Positions 6,030 to 58,934 of a stretch of DNA of 64,000 bases are shown here, in pieces; within the stretch, counting starts at the first letter, position 1; every line of letters starts with the position of its first letter. Where the stretch lies: NCBI RefSeq assembly GCF_038443385.1, contig NZ_CP151726.1, positions 1,426,001 through 1,490,000 of the forward strand, written 5' to 3'. Under the pieces are notes generated by a model. The model was not told where the DNA came from and searched no databases. It saw only the letters and a list, made by a program, of their open reading frames with translations. Origin of the DNA: Stieleria varia. GTDB lineage: Bacteria; Planctomycetota; Planctomycetia; Pirellulales; Pirellulaceae. The position numbers and the translations under genes were made by a program.

Positions 6030-7802
6030 ATGCCCTTTCCACGATTCTTGACCCCCATTCGATTCGGCTATTGCCTAGCACTTGTCAGCGTTATCGCCCT
6101 CGCCAGCACGGTCCGCAGCGTCGCCGCAGCGGACAGCTCGGACGGCATCGTTGCGGTCGTCAACGCCGAACCGATCACTCAAAAGATGCTGGCCGATGCC
6201 TCCGTCACGCGATACGGCAAGGACGTATTGGACAACGTCATCAACCGCCAATTGATCATGCAGGCCTGCAACGAGAAAGGGCTGCAGGTCAGCGAACAAG
6301 AAGTCGCAGAAGAGATCAATCGGATTGCGGCAAAGTTCAAGCTCACGACTCCAGACTACTTGAAACTGCTGGACGAAGAGCGAGACATCACACCGGGTCG
6401 CTATGCCCGCGAGATCATCTGGCCGATGTTGGCGCTCCGCAAATTGGTCGCCGGCCAAGTCGAACCGACCCAACAAGAATTCAATGAAGCCTATCTGGCG
6501 CAGTTCGGTGAGGCGGTCAAGTGCCGCATGATCATGGTCGCCGACAAAACCAAGGCGGATTCACTGCACCGTGAAGCCGTCGCCAACCCGGCCGGTTTCG
6601 GTAATCTCGCCAAAATGAACAGCGAAGACGAAACCAGCGCCAGCGTCGGCGGATTGATCCCACCCATCCGTCGCTACACCGGCGACTCACGTTTGGAGGA
6701 AGCCGCATTTGCGTTGAAGGACAACGAAGTCTCGCCGCTGATTCAAATCGCCGACCAGTGGATGTTCCTGCAAGCCGTGCGACGCATCCCCGCAGCGACA
6801 CCACCAACCAACGAAATGCCCGCTATCCGCGAACAAATCGTGGATCGCATTCGTGATCAAAAAATCCGTGGCGCCGCCGGTGAGTTGTTTGCCAAGTTGC
6901 AACGCGATGCCAATGTGTCCAAAGTATTCGGCAACGCAGACCTGCAAGCCAAGTTTCCAGGCGTCGCTGCAATCGTCAACGAACAACGCATCACGATCTC
7001 CGCTCTCGCATCGGAGTGTGTCAAACGTCACGGCGGCGATGTCCTGGAAGGCGAGATCAATCGAAAACTGTTGACGCAGGGACTCAAAAAAGCCGGCAAA
7101 CAGGTCTCGCAGCCCGACATCGATCAGGAAATCGCCAAAGCGGCGATCACCTACGGATTCATCGGTGAGGACGGTAAACCCAACATCGCTGCCTGGATGG
7201 AATCGGTCACCAGTGACGGACAAACCACGCCTGCGATCTACATCCAAGATTCCGTCTGGCCAAGCGTCGCACTTCGCAAACTGGTCGAAGACGAAATCAA
7301 GATCACGGAGCAAGACGTCAAGCAGGGATTTGAGTCGTCCTACGGCGAACGAGCCGAGATCCTGGCGATCGTGCTGTCCGATCAACGCACCGCACAAAAG
7401 GTTTGGAAGATGGCTCGTGACAATCCGTCGGAAGAGTTCTTCGGACGTTTGGCCGAACAGTACAGTGTCGAACCCGTTTCAGCCAGCAACCGAGGTAAGG
7501 TACCGCCGATCCGCCAACACAGCGGTCAGCCATTGATCGAGCGAGAAGCCTTTGCACTCAAACCGGGAGAACTCAGTGGGATCATCGCCACGGCGGACAA
7601 ATACATCGTGCTCAAGAGCCAAGGGCGCACGACACCGTACGTGACGGACCTGGAGGCTGTGCGATCAGAGTTGGTCAACGAACTGACCGAACGAAAGACG
7701 GCCGCCGCGATGGCATCGACCTTCGATCGATTGAAGACGTCTGCTGAAATCGACAACTACTTCATCGCCGCCAAAGAAATCGCCGCCACAGCACAACGCT
7801 GA
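6030..7802 (+). CDS. Exported SurA/PrsA-like peptidyl-prolyl isomerase with two tandem copies
   Basis: A secreted protein of about 590 residues. The ATG at 6030 is preferred over the GTG at 6021 because GGAG (6018-6021) stands 8 bases before it. A signal peptide is visible (FGYCLALVSVIALASTVRSVAAA). The rest holds two similar units: each begins with 'VAVVNAEPIT' or 'AAIVNEQRIT', continues with a helical SurA-type chaperone region (DVLDNVINRQLIMQ and DVLEGEINRKLLTQ), and ends with a parvulin-like rotamase region (SVGGLIPPIRRYTGDSRLEEAAFALK and the matching NRGKVPPIRQHSGQPLIEREAFALK, key residues given). It probably assists folding of exported or outer-membrane proteins. Whether the rotamase units are active is uncertain. 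It stands alone, followed by a hairpin repeat. Confidence 0.88.
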   Translation: MPFPRFLTPIRFGYCLALVSVIALASTVRSVAAADSSDGIVAVVNAEPITQKMLADASVTRYGKDVLDNVINRQLIMQACNEKGLQVSEQEVAEEINRIAAKFKLTTPDYLKLLDEERDITPGRYAREIIWPMLALRKLVAGQVEPTQQEFNEAYLAQFGEAVKCRMIMVADKTKADSLHREAVANPAGFGNLAKMNSEDETSASVGGLIPPIRRYTGDSRLEEAAFALKDNEVSPLIQIADQWMFLQAVRRIPAATPPTNEMPAIREQIVDRIRDQKIRGAAGELFAKLQRDANVSKVFGNADLQAKFPGVAAIVNEQRITISALASECVKRHGGDVLEGEINRKLLTQGLKKAGKQVSQPDIDQEIAKAAITYGFIGEDGKPNIAAWMESVTSDGQTTPAIYIQDSVWPSVALRKLVEDEIKITEQDVKQGFESSYGERAEILAIVLSDQRTAQKVWKMARDNPSEEFFGRLAEQYSVEPVSASNRGKVPPIRQHSGQPLIEREAFALKPGELSGIIATADKYIVLKSQGRTTPYVTDLEAVRSELVNELTERKTAAAMASTFDRLKTSAEIDNYFIAAKEIAATAQR

Positions 7803-20767: not shown

Positions 20768-21846
20768 GTGTCGTCCAGAGTCGCTGATGATTTCGAGTCT
20801 CGCCAGGGGCGAAGAGCAATTGGGAGGTCAGAGAACCGGTGAGTTCTGTGTGGCCCGGGACGAAATCAGCAGCGTGTCCATTGAAGAAAACCGCATTTCA
20901 GTTAAATGAAATCCCGTCGAAAGATCTGCGGTTATTGATCGATCGAGGGTGTTCGAAACAAAGAGAGTTCGTGAACAGGTTGCGAGGACGAGTGTTCGCC
21001 GACGCGGTTGCAGTGCTTCACTGCGGCGTTTCACTGCGGGGTTTCACTGCGAGTAAGTCATTTGTGGCCATGAGGATGTCTCATGGAGAATCTCATCGGT
21101 GCCACGAAGTGCCGTTTCCAAGCCGCTTGATGGCCCGATTTGGATCAAGTCGCACAGACGGAACCAATTGTTTCGTCGTGCCCTATCCCCGAGTCACTTC
21201 GTTGCGTTCACTCCAACCAATCCGTTGTGGATTCTGTGCCCTGATAGGGGCTCAAATCTGGCCAACGCTACCGCTGTGCCCCAACCTGGAGAGCGACAGC
21301 ATGTTGAATGAATGTTTCCCAAATCAATCGACCCGATCCAGTTGCTTCTTCGGTGAAGCGTGATCGTAGAAAGTCCGGGGTTCGATGCCGAAATGGCAAT
21401 GGTGTTCCTTGTTGCATCATCGCTGACATCCGCTTTTTCCCTCTGTCGTCGCGATTGAGGAATCGCGGAGGAAACAGGCCGTCTCTTGTAATTCTATACG
21501 CTGACGGAACGGGGCGTCCAGAGAAGACGCAATCAAGTGAACTCGGGCAAGCTGGATTGAGCTGGTGGGCTCGCTTGACCGACAACGGCAGAAATATACC
21601 CGACCGAGAAGTCTTGTCAAGGCATTATTCATAAAGTGCCCCCCGTTGGTGGTGTTTTTGGCTCAAGGCCGCCTTGTACGCCGGGAAGGCAGAATCCTGG
21701 ATGTCAAACATTCGGGTGGCGTCAAAGTCCGCCCATTTTGTACTTTCGTTTCAAGCGTCAGACACTTCGCAACCGAATCTGACGAGGAGAAGGCAAAGGA
21801 TGCCGTCTGTTTTTGGCTTATTCACGGATTGAACAGGACCGACTCA
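20768..21846. other. Long gap of about 1.1 kb with no supported gene
   Basis: Both strands were read. The open frames here have amino-acid content unlike real proteins and lack ribosome sites. Near 21014-21053 a 12-13-base unit (TTCACTGCGGCG type) is repeated three times in tandem. The stretch must hold the promoters of rho (-) and of the thioredoxin-like gene (+), but I could not place them with confidence. It may contain a long leader or a non-coding RNA. Confidence 0.5.
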
Positions 21847-23082
21847 ATGCGAATTGCAGTCCTCGCTGTAGTAGCGATCGCCGCCGTTGGAATGAATGCA
21901 AGCAAGGCTTGCGCGGAAATCGCCTGGGAAGGCAACTTGCGAGCAGCCCACGCCAAGGCTCAGCAGGAGGGCAAGCTGATGCTCCTGCACTTCTATCGAG
22001 ACAACTGCGTGTGGTGCGATCGCTTGGAGGCCGGTTCGTTTCAGAACCCACAAGTTTCCGCGGCGATCAACCAGCAGTTCGTGCCGGTCAAGATTCACGG
22101 AACCAAGAATCCCAAGCTCGCCGAAATGTTCAAGATCACGCGGTATCCCACCGACGTGATCGTGACCACGGACGGCAAGGCCCTGTCGCACAACACCAGC
22201 CCACAAGAGCCGGAGAAATACATCGCGATGTTGTCGGGAGGCCTGCAAGCCTCCAAAGCGGCCGGCACGATGATCGCTGCTCAGGCTCCGGCTGCTCAGG
22301 CTCCGGCAGTTCAGGCACCTGCGGCACAACCATCCGCTGGTCAAAGTGTGGCGACGTCCCAACAGCCCGCCGTGTCGCAGCCGCCGTCCTATGCCCAGGC
22401 CGCCGCGATCGCAGCAGCACCGCCGTCGGCTCCACAACCGTCCGCGCCGGCAGTTGCCGCGTCCAACATGCCCACTCAAGTTCCCGCATCGACCGGGACT
22501 CAGCCACAATCCAATCAATTCGTGTTGCCGCACGCGGTTCCCGGTGCCACGACGGGGCAGTTGACTGGTGCTCGGATGGATGCACCGCGGGCTGATTCGA
22601 TGTCGTTGACGTTGCCTGTTCAACCGACCGCCCAAGCAGCGAGCTCTGCTCAACAGCAAGTCGTTTCTCAAACACCACCTTTGCCAAAGAATGAATCAAC
22701 ACCGGAATTGGCGTTGCAAGGTTTCTGTGCCGTCTCGCTGCTGAACAACGATGGCTGGGTCGAGGGCAAGACAGAATTTGGCGTGATCCATCTCGGCAAG
22801 CTCTACTTGTTCGCAAGCAAGGAAGCGATGGATCTGTTCGTCCAGGACCCCATCCCCTACACGCCGATGCTCAATGAAATCGACGTCGTTCGATTCTTCG
22901 AAGAACGCCGCATCGTTGCCGGCAAACGCGAGTGGGGCGTCAAGGATCCGATCCATGGACGCATGTTCTTCTTTGCCGACAAAGCCGCCCGGGATCACTT
23001 TGAAATGTCGTTCGAGCGATACCTCGACGCGTCTATCAAGGTGATGGAGCAGGCCATTCAGGATGCGAATCCCGGTACCTAG
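21847..23082 (+). CDS. Exported thioredoxin-like protein with a YHS-like C-terminal domain
   Basis: About 411 residues. The start is the ATG at 21847 (MRIAVLAVVAIAAVGM), which places a signal peptide at the N-terminus; the open frame upstream lacks that logic. Residues about 25-130 form a thioredoxin-like domain with HFYRDNCVWCDRLEAGSF, where Cys54 and Cys57 make a CxxC pair, and FVPVKIHGTKNPKLAEMFKI. A long linker follows, rich in Ala, Gln and Pro (AQAPAAQAPAVQAPAAQPSA). The C-terminal domain starts LALQGFCAVSLLNNDGWV and contains LYLFASKEAMDLFVQDP, the pattern of YHS domains. It may handle thiol redox or metal delivery in the periplasm. The exact role is unknown. Confidence 0.78.
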   Translation: MRIAVLAVVAIAAVGMNASKACAEIAWEGNLRAAHAKAQQEGKLMLLHFYRDNCVWCDRLEAGSFQNPQVSAAINQQFVPVKIHGTKNPKLAEMFKITRYPTDVIVTTDGKALSHNTSPQEPEKYIAMLSGGLQASKAAGTMIAAQAPAAQAPAVQAPAAQPSAGQSVATSQQPAVSQPPSYAQAAAIAAAPPSAPQPSAPAVAASNMPTQVPASTGTQPQSNQFVLPHAVPGATTGQLTGARMDAPRADSMSLTLPVQPTAQAASSAQQQVVSQTPPLPKNESTPELALQGFCAVSLLNNDGWVEGKTEFGVIHLGKLYLFASKEAMDLFVQDPIPYTPMLNEIDVVRFFEERRIVAGKREWGVKDPIHGRMFFFADKAARDHFEMSFERYLDASIKVMEQAIQDANPGT

Positions 23083-23091
23083 CCCGGATGA

Positions 23092-23156
23092 TTCATAACC
23101 CGACGCGTAAGCGAGGGATACTCGGTAAATCCCTCGCTTACGCGTCGGGTTATGAA
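23092..23156. repeat. Perfect 27-bp inverted repeat downstream of the thioredoxin-like gene
   Basis: The arms 23092-23118 and 23130-23156 are perfect inverted copies with an 11-base loop. The core is CGACGCGTAAGCGAGGGA. It stands 9 bases after the stop of the thioredoxin-like gene and resembles intergenic palindromes frequent in Rhodopirellula. There is only a short A-run after the second arm on the plus strand. Confidence 0.92.
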
Positions 23157-23474
23157 AAACAATCTGCATTTCCCAGCGATGTCACAACTCATTGTCAAGA
23201 ATCTGTTTGCGCTAAAATCAATCATCCGCGTGACTCATTCAAGCTAGCGCTCAATGGCTGACGCCAAAAATTGAATCGTGACAAATCACTGATCCTCATC
23301 CAAAGCCTCAAGCAGGGTTTCGCCGTAATCGAGATCTTGCCAAAGGTCCCAACGGGCAAGGAATTCTGGCGAATCCCAACACGCGATGGGTGGTGGTCCC
23401 CGTGATTCTGTGACGAAGGCGTCTATCATGGAGATTGGTTCTGCTCCCATTCTCCAAGCAATCGAAACACTCTC

Positions 23475-24755
23475 ATGGCACTTCCCCCCTGGGCCGTTGA
23501 CGCGATCCGTCGCGGGATCGTTGACGTGGCCCGCAAGGCCGGCGATCAAGAAACGCTTTCCAAACTCAAGCAACAAGCGACCGAGATCTTTCGCGATTTG
23601 CCCGATACCGCTGCGCGTAGTGTCGAAGCGATCGTGCGAACAGCAAAGACGGGGACTCAAACGTTGCAGCGTTGGGCAGACCGTCAGCCTGAAATCGCTG
23701 TCCCCTTGATCAATGCATCAGGACGTCTGCTGGACAACAAGCTGGGGTCGGGCTGCCCGATCCCGGATGCTGTCTTGCAAGTCGGTTGTGATTTGCTGCG
23801 TGGGGACTGCAAACGCGGTGGCCTACGAGAGCGGATTGACCACCGCTTGGATCAACTGGTATCTGGGCATGGTATCGCCGTTGCCGGCAACCTGGATCTG
23901 GCAATCGAAATGGTATCGCAACTCTCGCCCGAGTGGGGCTTGGCGATCCATCGCAGCCAAGCGATTCGATTGCCCAGCGGAACTCCATTGCCGGATGCGT
24001 TCGGCGCGTCCGCGATTCGCGAAGTCGGCGGCGTTCAGCGTATCGAACCCGATGACTTCAACGGACTCAGCCAAACGATTGTTGTATTGGCTGACGCGGG
24101 CGAAGTGGAGTTCACTTTGCCGACATCGATGAGCGACACGGTTCGCTTTGCGGTGGTGTTGCCGGTCGGGACGTTGACGGACGAACAAGACGGAGTACCC
24201 AGTGCAGCGGGACTGTTGGCCGGCGGTGTCGACTTGGTGATCCTGTCGGGCGATGGACTTGCTGGAGGACCGTCGTGCGGTTTACTGGTTGGCAGAACTG
24301 ACTGGATCGAACGATTGACGTCGCATCCCCAGTGGCGAGGTCACGCGGCCAGCGATGCAGTTGCCGCGATGATGCTCAGTGCGTTGGAGCATCGAGCGGT
24401 CGATGTGACACCCGAATCGGATGTCTCCACGGTCCGGCAACTGATCGCAGTCAACGAAGACAATCTGCGGAGTCGCGCCGAACGAATGTCAACGCGACTC
24501 TCCGGGGCGGATTCGATCCACAGTTGTCAAATCACCGATCATCCTGCATGGCTGATTGAATCGGGACGTTGGCAGTTTCCATCGCGTCAACTGCGAGTTC
24601 GCCACACGTCTCGGTCGGCCACGCAGTGGGCAAGTGATTTGGCCCAAGGCGATCCCGCCATCAGCGTCGGAGTCGACGGTGACGAGATCGTGGTGGATTT
24701 GCGTTGGGTTCCGGCGTCGGCCGACGGTTCGCTTGCCGAACGTCTGGAGTCGTAG
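23475..24755 (+). CDS. SelA-like (L-seryl-tRNA(Sec) selenium transferase) homologue lacking the PLP lysine
   Basis: A 426-residue protein that follows the layout of SelA, a PLP enzyme of the fold-type I aminotransferase group. The N-terminal part has IRRGIVDVARKAGD, then PLINASGRLLDNKLGSGCPI, which matches the SelA block INATGVVLHTNLGR. The cofactor region is LVILSGDGLAGGPSCGLLVG (about residues 254-272), matching SelA's FSGDKLLGGPQAGIIVG, but the Schiff-base lysine is Gly261. Other parts are also eroded (ADAGEVEFTLP in the middle). No selB, selD or tRNA-Sec is in the window. The protein is full length with intact reading frame and good codon use, so it is probably expressed in a new role that does not use classical PLP chemistry. 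Confidence 0.8.
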   Translation: MALPPWAVDAIRRGIVDVARKAGDQETLSKLKQQATEIFRDLPDTAARSVEAIVRTAKTGTQTLQRWADRQPEIAVPLINASGRLLDNKLGSGCPIPDAVLQVGCDLLRGDCKRGGLRERIDHRLDQLVSGHGIAVAGNLDLAIEMVSQLSPEWGLAIHRSQAIRLPSGTPLPDAFGASAIREVGGVQRIEPDDFNGLSQTIVVLADAGEVEFTLPTSMSDTVRFAVVLPVGTLTDEQDGVPSAAGLLAGGVDLVILSGDGLAGGPSCGLLVGRTDWIERLTSHPQWRGHAASDAVAAMMLSALEHRAVDVTPESDVSTVRQLIAVNEDNLRSRAERMSTRLSGADSIHSCQITDHPAWLIESGRWQFPSRQLRVRHTSRSATQWASDLAQGDPAISVGVDGDEIVVDLRWVPASADGSLAERLES

Positions 24756-24877: not shown

Positions 24878-25057
24878 ATGAATATGGACAAGAAGCAAAA
24901 GAAACGTTTGGATGTGATCAACAAGAAACTCCAGCACATGCGAAAGCAACTCTCCGGTTCACGAGAGCAAGCCGACGATGCGGACGAGCTCAAGGAACTG
25001 GAGACGACCATCGCTCAATTGGAAGCCGAAGCGGCCGAAATCAAAGGCTCCAAGTGA
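24878..25057 (+). CDS. Small coiled-coil protein (59 aa)
   Basis: A short gene read from ATG at 24878 with AGGAG (24871-24875) just upstream; the second ATG at 24884 is equally possible. The product MNMDKKQKKRLDVINKKLQ... is almost entirely charged, with heptad-like hydrophobics across HMRKQLSGSREQADDADELK and LEAEAAEIKGSK at the end, so it should form a helix or coiled coil. It follows the SelA-like gene after 122 bases on the same strand and ends 1 base before the end of the convergent VirD4 gene. The strong ribosome site and the typical coding pattern make it likely to be real. I cannot name a family. Confidence 0.75.
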   Translation: MNMDKKQKKRLDVINKKLQHMRKQLSGSREQADDADELKELETTIAQLEAEAAEIKGSK

Positions 25058-25058
25058 G

Positions 25059-26465
25059 TCACCTTGGAGCTCGGTTCCGGCCGGGATCAGGCGACTTCTG
25101 TCGGCTCCTGGCCGTCTTGGGCTCCTTCTTGGACGCCGGTTCGTAGAAACGATTGGCGTCGAACTGGCCTTGGAAAATTGGGTCCGTCAAGTAGTTCAAG
25201 CGACGGCATCGCAATTCGCCTTGACCGTGGATCGAAACGATCTGTTCGTTGTCCGAAAGGCTTCTCAGTACATTTGGCCCCGAGTCGAGGTAGTCGCCCC
25301 ACTGAGTTGCCATGTCCCGATTGTAGATGCCAAACGTCTGCACCACGGCGCAGTTGTTCAAAATGGTTCGCCACGTTGTGGGGTAGTTGCCCCGCAGTTG
25401 GCTCAAGTCCTGCCAAATGGTGTGGACCCACACACCGTAGCCGGCCGCGAGCGTCATCAGCGTTTCCAGGAGCGGGAAATTTCCCAACTGCGCGGCTTCG
25501 TCGATCATCAGCAGCGTGTTGAGCTTGGGGCGGTGGCGTCGGCTCAAGATGGCTTTCATCAAAGTGCCGATCCAGAGTTTCATCAGCGGACGGTGGCTGA
25601 CCAGGCGATCCGGTGGAATGATCAGGTAGATCGACAGCGGTTTGCCATCGACCACGTCCTGGAGCGAGAAACTGGTTTCCGATAACGTTCCGGCGACCGC
25701 CGGGCTCATCAAAGATTTGACATACGACTGAGCCGTGGCCAGGACGCCCCCACGTGTGACATCCGGCATGGCGATGGTGGCGGCAATCTCTCGGTACGCC
25801 ATTTGATTCATCTGTTTCCCCATCACGTCGAGCAGAACGGCCATGCGGTACGATGGGTCGTCTCCGTGCAACGAGTCGACGATGGAATTCAAATTCGCTC
25901 GGCCTTCCGTGTCGGAGCTGGCGTTGGCGATCAGTCCCGAGTGAATCGCTTTGGCTTGAATGTCCCAGAAAGGTTCTTTGGTGGATTGGTTGACGGTTGC
26001 CATCAACTCGGCCAGCAACTGTGAATCGCTTTCCAAATCGGCGCCCGTCAGTCTCAGCACATCAAAGGGATTGAGGCAGTCCGAAGGTTCGTCGACCACG
26101 CCGAATGGATCCAAGCGGACGACTTGATGCCCCAGTTCACGGCGACGTCGCGCCGTGACGTGATACGCCTCGGCCTTTGGGTCGATCACGACGACGGGTC
26201 CCTGATAGGACAGCAGGTTTGGGATCACCGTGCCCACGCCTTTGCCCGCGCGAGTGGGCGCTATCGTGATCAAGTGGCCGTCGCCGCTGTACCGCACCAG
26301 ATCACCACGTTTTCGAGGCGGTGGATGTTTTTGAGTGTGGAACCCAAGTTCCGACTGGTACTGGGACTGGTGACCCAAAACAATGCATTGCTCACCGGGC
26401 TCCGAACTCTTCTTGGAGGCTGGGGGCCGGCTGGTCGTTTTCGGTTTTGGTTTCTTGGTGCTCAT
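25059..26465 (-). CDS. Orphan VirD4/TraG-family (type IV coupling protein) ATPase
   Basis: About 468 residues of the TraG/VirD4 family, the ATPases that bring DNA or protein to type IV secretion systems. Walker A is IAPTRAGKGVGTVIPNLL (near residue 70) and Walker B is TLLMIDEAAQLGNFPLLETL. Blocks VVIDPKAEAYHVTARRRREL and TIWQDLSQLRGNYPTTWRTI are typical. The start is probably the ATG at 26465; another at 26477 would place AAAGGA directly against it. The N-terminal membrane anchor of conjugative VirD4 is missing, so the protein looks soluble. No relaxase, VirB or Mpf gene is nearby, so a role in conjugation is not supported. The stop is 1 base from that of the convergent 59-aa gene. Confidence 0.9.
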   Translation of the reverse strand: MSTKKPKPKTTSRPPASKKSSEPGEQCIVLGHQSQYQSELGFHTQKHPPPRKRGDLVRYSGDGHLITIAPTRAGKGVGTVIPNLLSYQGPVVVIDPKAEAYHVTARRRRELGHQVVRLDPFGVVDEPSDCLNPFDVLRLTGADLESDSQLLAELMATVNQSTKEPFWDIQAKAIHSGLIANASSDTEGRANLNSIVDSLHGDDPSYRMAVLLDVMGKQMNQMAYREIAATIAMPDVTRGGVLATAQSYVKSLMSPAVAGTLSETSFSLQDVVDGKPLSIYLIIPPDRLVSHRPLMKLWIGTLMKAILSRRHRPKLNTLLMIDEAAQLGNFPLLETLMTLAAGYGVWVHTIWQDLSQLRGNYPTTWRTILNNCAVVQTFGIYNRDMATQWGDYLDSGPNVLRSLSDNEQIVSIHGQGELRCRRLNYLTDPIFQGQFDANRFYEPASKKEPKTARSRQKSPDPGRNRAPR

Positions 26466-26786
26466 GACAACTATCATTCCTTTCCAGAGTGTGCAGATGA
26501 CTGTTATCTATGGCCCAGAATCGAAAACATCAGGGCGGTGGTGCTCAAAGAATTTGATACACACAAGGGACACTTGGTTCGCTCCGGCAGAGCGAAAGGA
26601 CGTCTGATTGTCCCGAATCGGTTTGCCAGCTTTCGTCCTCTCCGTCCTGAGTAAACGACGGGCTCAGAATGCCTCCAGGAAAATTTCCGGAATTCATTGA
26701 GGCTCCGACGCGAGAAAAACGCAGTGAGATTTCAGGCGACAAGTGATTCGCCTGATTTCTCATGACTCTCCCACGGAACCGATCCG

Positions 26787-58555: not shown

Positions 58556-58925
<370 letters not shown>

Positions 58926-58934
58926 TTTTGAAAG

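Follow-up and report, generated by a model that had tools for sequence, protein, structure and literature searches.

The gene at 23475..24755 (+) of the 64-kb stretch of the Stieleria varia genome analysed here (the window, meaning that stretch at its full length) encodes a SelA-derived protein of 426 aa without the PLP lysine, and most probably (roughly 0.77) a pseudoenzyme exapted from selenocysteine synthase. The catalytic residues have been lost, the fold is preserved in a predicted model, and close congeners show purifying selection. This selection, counted among seven congeners, operates without Sec machinery, which is missing from the window's own genome as from the congeners. A pseudoenzyme independent of both PLP and selenium is the best-supported reading of what the protein is now; a new, non-catalytic job for it is very likely, and PLP chemistry anywhere in its family very unlikely.

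Identity of the protein and loss of the cofactor site

In a Pfam search, the only family matched by the window protein was SelA (PF03841; 52.5 bits against a cut-off of 22.8, residues 242–411). The TIGR00474 selA model also matched, at 70.8 bits, short of its equivalog cut-off of 267.9. Alignment of the family to SelA with hhalign covered 410 columns (probability 99.9%, E 5e-38), and a Foldseek comparison considered below agrees, so that homology to SelA is found in both sequence and fold. The original prediction was of a SelA homologue with glycine in place of the Schiff-base lysine, in an intact frame of normal codon use, and this description holds: the 426-codon frame is unbroken, GC3 is 0.63 against 0.62–0.72 in five neighbouring genes, and the alignments put Gly261 (codon 24255..24257, +) at the position of Lys285 of A. 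aeolicus SelA, in a cofactor block that reads SGDGLAGGPSCG. A single Lys-to-Gly replacement nevertheless understates the loss. The equivalents of Arg86, Arg119, Asp255, and Arg315 are gone too, with Gly93 (codon 23751..23753, +) at the Arg86 position, while those of Ser282, Asp284, and Arg312 are retained. Asp255 we take to be the PLP ring partner in SelA. The selenophosphate arginines 86, 312, and 315 correspond to Gly, Arg, and Ala, just one of the three being retained. Roles in SelA for Arg86 (selenophosphate), Arg312, Arg315, Arg119, Asp284, Ser282, and Lys285 are described in passages of PMC4607533.

Sec machinery in the genome and its relatives

The gene is the sole SelA match in its 9.72-Mb single-contig genome. 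That no selB, selD, or tRNA-Sec gene lies in the window had been noticed from the start, and is now extended to the whole genome, where none was found over cut-off. The best model match for SelB was 156.2 bits (cut-off 242.25) and for SelD 44.7 bits (cut-off 125); the tRNA-Sec matches that passed the gathering score include none from this genome (best E 7.8e-6), and Rfam at gathering thresholds found only a tmRNA gene in the 64 kb of the window (58556–58928, +; 166.4 bits), with no tRNA-Sec.

Among 60 genomes searched, 22 have a tRNA-Sec match of 62–73 bits, every other match being at or below 53.5. Three genomes with SelB (G018, G027, G039) have no such tRNA-Sec match, and one (G015) has tRNA-Sec and SelD with no SelB over cut-off; these mismatches are such as draft gaps would give. 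The SelD genes are varied in themselves. Of the 23 genomes where SelD is over cut-off, 10 (G014, G021, G025, G027, G032, G034, G039, G040, G045, and G058) have it in an unusually long frame (735–842 aa), which suggests a fused domain, and several other SelD genes have one in-frame TGA, possibly making them selenoprotein forms of SelD.

Distribution of the lysine-less family

Full-length relatives of the window protein, at 35–51% identity, were found in 12 of the 13 other members of the genus and in two further genera (G024, G026). The sole congener without a SelA-like match, G008, is an 85% complete genome in which rpoB is missing too. Scanning of named genomes yielded 28 loci, in Rhodopirellula, Stieleria, Roseiconus, Rubripirellula, Neorhodopirellula, Aporhodopirellula, and other planctomycetes. 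In a set of 170 Pirellulaceae genomes of at least 90% completeness, at least 57 match the window's family from its first position (among the matches listed, with E up to about 9e-28); three more, G019, G164, and G165, where the match begins at position 6, are outside this count. G006, with two identical inverted copies, is counted as one genome. The two copies are about 1 kb apart at L037 (G006:C58), possibly as an assembly palindrome. Overall the family is spread through a large Pirellulaceae clade including Stieleria, Rhodopirellula, Rubripirellula, and their relatives, and its unity is supported (98) in a quick 57-row SelA tree, used solely for this purpose as it contains three very long branches.

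Had close relatives kept the lysine, the prediction would have fared badly, but it is absent throughout. In 35 distinct family proteins (43 rows minus 8 duplicates) the lysine column holds G in 16, P in 10, V in 7, T in one, H in one, and K in none. In 55 of the 57 listed genomes the column holds glycine in 30, valine in 12, proline in 11, threonine in one, arginine in one, and again no lysine. The Arg86 column of the same 55 is G in 52, P in two, and A in one, and never Arg. None of these 55 has a stop inside the match; the two left out, G155 (C7:175136–176692) and G156 (C6:144319–145686), have an internal stop (TAG, TAA), the only ones among the 57, which could be either true breakage or sequencing error. 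By comparison, Lys285, Arg86, Arg119, Asp255, Ser282, and Asp284 are intact in 24 of 24 SelA sequences from Sec-using relatives, and Arg312/315 in 23, the remaining one being a gapped fragment. The loss of the lysine is ancient, and most of the cofactor site has gone with it.

It is unlikely that the protein is still an enzyme of some other kind, with PLP Schiff-base chemistry replaced by another cofactor or a remodelled pocket. Such an enzyme would account for the conservation of a glycine-rich turn at the old lysine (G259, G264, G269, G273) together with Arg160 and Asp253. However, no conserved acid, base, or nucleophile is seen at the former catalytic columns of the 35 proteins (G, P, V, T, or H at Lys285, V or I at Asp255, mostly A at Arg315), and the residues that are retained are common to SelA and can be structural.

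Selection on the family

Among the 21 pairs formed by seven close congeners, a Nei-Gojobori-type count gave dN/dS values of 0.149–0.263, those for the six pairs with G004 being rough (dS >1.2). The window's own gene, having diverged too far for such a count, is not among the seven. Four flanking genes gave values of 0.03–0.46. The congener values are far below 1, the level near which a pseudogene would be expected; with the absence of the lysine in relatives, they support the earlier view that the frame is kept by selection for a non-Sec role and is not decaying. A comparison of 41 distinct family proteins with 21 working SelA sequences (N-terminal columns loosely aligned, G021a left out) found 19 columns conserved unchanged, 9 conserved but altered, 25 newly conserved, and 126 relaxed.

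Retention without Sec and coexistence with intact SelA

A match to the SelA model (E ≤1e-3) is present in every one of the 170 Pirellulaceae genomes, and SelB over cut-off in 76. Another 90 of the 170 lack both a full SelA and SelB over cut-off, yet have a degenerate SelA match, in agreement with the family alignment. The remaining four SelB-less genomes comprise two with full SelA (G096, G173) and two (G015, G190) with only a match of another kind, not recovered by the family alignment. The lysine column was read in 60 of the 90 (42 from the window's family and 18 others), and is K in G030 only; orphan SelA proteins that keep the lysine are found in G030, G037, and G041. Not all members of the order have retained SelA. 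Among the 60 genomes, 12 from outside the Pirellulaceae are SelB-less; four of these keep a SelA-like protein (G037, G041, G042, G059), and in the other eight the match is absent or weak and partial, the largest being 51.6 bits in G054.

A second SelA, over cut-off, is found in 13 of the 57 listed genomes (G123, G124, and G170–G180), 12 of which also have SelB over cut-off. The family copy is lysine-less in all 13 (Gly in 12, Arg in G124), and the five intact copies read (G123, G170, G174, G180, G124) keep both Lys and Arg86. As G123 is a closed single contig, binning does not account for the two-copy state. An intact SelA is combined with degenerate copies of other kinds in G065 and G021 as well (W and Q, respectively, at the lysine position); in G065, the intact selA has at its 3′ end a tRNA-Sec (tca; L192, 950–1044, −). 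The intact SelA proteins of G021, G065, G123, G170, G174, and G180 group in a clade of their own, separate from the SelA common in Pirellulales (100/100), and that of G124 groups with SelA of two other families in a quick tree. The simplest reading, from these groupings, is that Sec would have been regained later with foreign genes. This would fit the full, apparently mixed-origin Sec gene set that passages of PMC4807772 report for two planctomycetes, one of them a Rhodopirellula.

The presence of both copies in 13 of the listed genomes could also be taken to mean that the lysine-less protein takes part in Sec synthesis as a regulatory or hetero-oligomeric subunit, partnering intact SelA. Dead paralogues activate partner enzymes in other systems. 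Here such a role is hardly credible: 44 of the 57 listed genomes, including the window's own, have no SelA over cut-off, so it cannot be general, and in six of the seven two-copy genomes sampled (all except G124) the intact SelA belongs to a separate clade, as if acquired later.

The same coexistence bears on whether the gene is a slowly decaying relic, a selA made useless by Sec loss whose frame is still open for want of time. A relic would be expected to vary at the lysine position, as is seen (G, P, V, T, R, and H in the family; L, S, N, Q, A, F, and W in related degenerate copies), and the internal stops in 2 of the 57 genomes and the absent or weak SelA matches in 8 of the 12 Sec-less genomes of other families point the same way. 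This is nonetheless decidedly improbable for the window's family, considering the dN/dS of 0.15–0.26 in congeners, the newly conserved columns, the SelA match retained in 90 of 90 Pirellulaceae genomes without SelB and full SelA, and the keeping of a lysine-less copy beside an intact SelA; 13 of 57 genomes also carry a SelA over cut-off, which makes it unlikely that the lysine-less copy is no more than a relic.

A more speculative proposal, put forward only tentatively, is that Pirellulaceae SelA had a catalysis-independent second function before Sec was lost, so that in every lineage losing Sec selA would outlast the rest of the system with an eroding active site, and the eroded SelA would be neither restored nor lost when Sec was regained from a foreign source.

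Probable descent from selA

In four of nine Sec-using loci compared (G020, G034, G038, G046), guaB lies close downstream of the common selA. The order is selB, selA, a secreted-looking protein of about 300 aa, and guaB in G020 and G034; G038 has selA and both downstream genes, and G046 has selB, selA, and guaB. No guaB was seen in the fetched stretch of the G018, G040, G045, G056, and G058 selA loci. The ~300-aa protein (L058 of G020, approximately 6667–7580, and relatives) adjoins selA, mostly with guaB following, and is conserved in both Sec-using and Sec-less Pirellulales.

At least one neighbour from the selA locus is kept at 8 of 16 orphan or degenerate loci (G016, G021, G030, G031, G033, G059, G062, G124). 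In G124, a member of the window's family immediately precedes guaB on the same strand, which points to descent of the lysine-less gene from that selA. Within the family this context is seen in G124 only; it is absent at the window locus and in G161, G164, and G187, for which descent from the guaB locus would follow from their homology with the G124 gene.

In an rpoB tree of 50 sequences (six congeners, G008, G039, G044, and G046 left out), the genomes of the window's family and G019, G023, and G036 form one clade (100/99). Elsewhere, G042 and G059 are beside the Sec-using G047 (100/99), and G031 and G033 are together (100/100). Lysine-keeping orphans are also found beside Sec-using relatives, G030 with G025 (97/98) and G037 with G056 (98/80). 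The lysine-less orphans are thus split into several lineages, and these groupings suggest that Sec was lost repeatedly, with erosion afterwards.

The SelA tree has a different arrangement: a single branch (95/87) sets off six lysine-less orphans, none of them from the window's family. Of five species-tree groupings put to AU tests, four are rejected, those of G042 and G059 with G047 (p 9e-5), G016 with G014 (p 2e-4), G021b with G020 and G029 (p 0.02), and G031 and G033 with G017 and G028 (p 0.03); that of G030 with G025 is not rejected (p 0.49). When the columns conserved in working SelA were removed, the three groupings retested were no longer rejected (p 0.08–0.23), and the six orphans still grouped, more weakly (79/81). 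The fading of the rejections means that the signal may reflect a shared loss of constraint. Fragments G035 and G039 were left out of the trees, and G021a also out of the SelA tree and the column-removed retest.

Both the branch uniting the six orphans and the four rejections (p 9e-5 to 0.03) would be expected if the lysine-less proteins go back to an ancient duplication of SelA, and not to conversion of a single ancestral selA after Sec loss, the present function being the same in either case. A duplication is rather doubtful, however, as 8 of the 16 orphan or degenerate loci, including G124 with its guaB, keep neighbours of the selA locus, and the rejections are lost (p 0.08–0.23) without the SelA-constrained columns.

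Gene neighborhood

The original prediction offered as a possible partner the 59-aa lysine-rich, coiled-coil-like protein whose gene (24878–25057, +) adjoins the SelA-like gene. The protein itself proved to be conserved, in single copy in 54 of the 60 Pirellulales genomes searched (the window's own included), but its placement did not: it adjoins the SelA-like gene in the window's own genome only, and elsewhere is always on another contig or, where the genome is a single contig, hundreds of kb or more away, so the partnership was rejected. It appears as an uncharacterised order-wide small protein, encoded at unrelated places.

No conserved operon partner common to the clade was found in a comparison of flanking frames across 36 contexts, or among the genes listed for fetched contexts of up to 20 kb. 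Some sharing is seen at closer range. Stieleria-type congeners have two upstream genes in common, for a peroxiredoxin-like and for a glycine-rich, EF-hand-like protein (names assigned by eye), and Rubripirellula-type relatives share two downstream proteins of about 500 aa. On the upstream side of the window gene is a gene for a thioredoxin-like protein with a C-terminal YHS-type region (21565–23082, +; Pfam/NCBI models), which matches NCBI (seleno)protein family models below their cut-offs, in a genome without Sec machinery. This is followed by an inverted repeat (23089–23157) with two exact arms, CCCTCGCTTACGCGTCGGG, at 23099–23117 and 23131–23149; 0.02 such matches are expected by chance, and it looks like a terminator-like or REP-like element. 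Downstream, at 25059–26477 (−), is a chromosomal gene for a TraG/VirD4-type conjugation coupling ATPase (PF02534, 230 bits).

Predicted structure and a possible role

Modelling, among the checks proposed originally, again leads to SelA. An AlphaFold2 model built with 29 aligned relatives (pLDDT 84.6, pTM 0.77) is predicted to have the SelA fold, and its best PDB matches in Foldseek are A. aeolicus SelA, the top one at a TM of about 0.70, and the SelA of 8uzw (TM by query length 0.65–0.71, probability 1.00, 18–19% identity). The degenerate SelA (fold-type I) domain, delimited by hhalign and Foldseek, takes up residues 76–426 (23700..24752, +). Preceding it is an N-terminal helical segment, residues 1–75 (23475..23699, +; from conservation and the model), which begins M-x-x-P-P-W. 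Residues 1–50 are the best-conserved part of the family (mean majority 0.70, with 16 of 50 columns at or above 90% in the 35 proteins). The model has helices here at 5–21, 25–40, and 44–69, at low confidence (pLDDT 46–67). Similarity of residues 1–75 to the N-terminal domain of SelA was undetectable by hhalign (probability 0.2%), and a search of the window's own genome gave no second copy of the segment (next best E 0.76). It may be a diverged remnant of the SelA N-terminal domain; the N-terminus of G019 has an intermediate look, as judged by eye, which makes gradual divergence of the old domain possible.

An ancestral Sec system would have been lost, and SelA kept for a role independent of catalysis. 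In the mechanism considered most likely, the protein would act as an adaptor or oligomeric scaffold, assembled through its fold-type I core. The N-terminal helical segment, where constraint is now strongest, would bind a putative protein or RNA partner, with selenium, PLP, and tRNA-Sec playing no part. The scaffold and its binding end are suggested by the pattern of conservation and by the known ring of SelA, which is described as a homo-oligomer in passages of PMC10941002. Some observations count against the pseudoenzyme reading as a whole: the lysine has been replaced by many different residues, as happens at relaxed sites; no neighbour is clade-wide; two genomes have internal stops; and the link to guaB is found in one genome.

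Relation to known systems

Compared with bacterial SelA (TIGR00474/PF03841; A. aeolicus 3w1h, 8uzw), the window protein is homologous over about 410 columns and has the same predicted fold, but is without the PLP lysine and the equivalents of Arg86, Arg119, Arg315, and Asp255, has an N-terminus not recognisable as the tRNA-Sec domain, and comes from a genome without SelB, SelD, or tRNA-Sec over cut-off. DgaE (7lc0), Cap15 (8t7j), and MJ0158 (2aeu) have the same fold and are weaker structural matches. Unlike the window protein, all three are described as PLP-dependent (PDB titles, NCBIfam names), and the DgaE and MJ0158 models match only short blocks near the old lysine (residues 249–283 and 251–306).

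That SelA homologues occur in organisms lacking Sec was noted as early as 2006, with a new function proposed for them (Zhang et al., 2006, PMC1794560). The study of Cravedi et al. (2015, PMC4607533) describes H. pylori SelA (HP1513), which retains the lysine and has lost the tRNA domain, along with parallels elsewhere, and suggests another, enzymatic function for SelA homologues without Sec; parts of PMC5029168 restate the idea of a recruited orphan SelA. As far as those accounts go, the window's family resembles the H. pylori orphan in being under purifying selection after Sec loss, apparently recruited elsewhere. In contrast to H. pylori SelA, where the lysine and PLP site are kept and the N-terminal domain lost, it is without the lysine and the PLP site, and its N-terminal segment is highly conserved. 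A catalytically dead copy kept by selection is also known from trypanosomatid deoxyhypusine synthase (PMC3663545); in that case the dead copy is paired with an active one, whereas in the window's family a SelA over cut-off is missing from 44 of 57 genomes. No description of a lysine-less SelA family was found in open PubMed Central papers (supplements aside), and the best reading is of a variant on the known orphan-SelA theme.

The relatives of the window gene make up a natural series, from intact SelA with Sec, through orphans that keep the lysine and degenerate genes at the old locus, to genomes with two copies. As Rhodopirellula and Stieleria, which carry members of the family, can be cultured, any further function of SelA can be put to the test.
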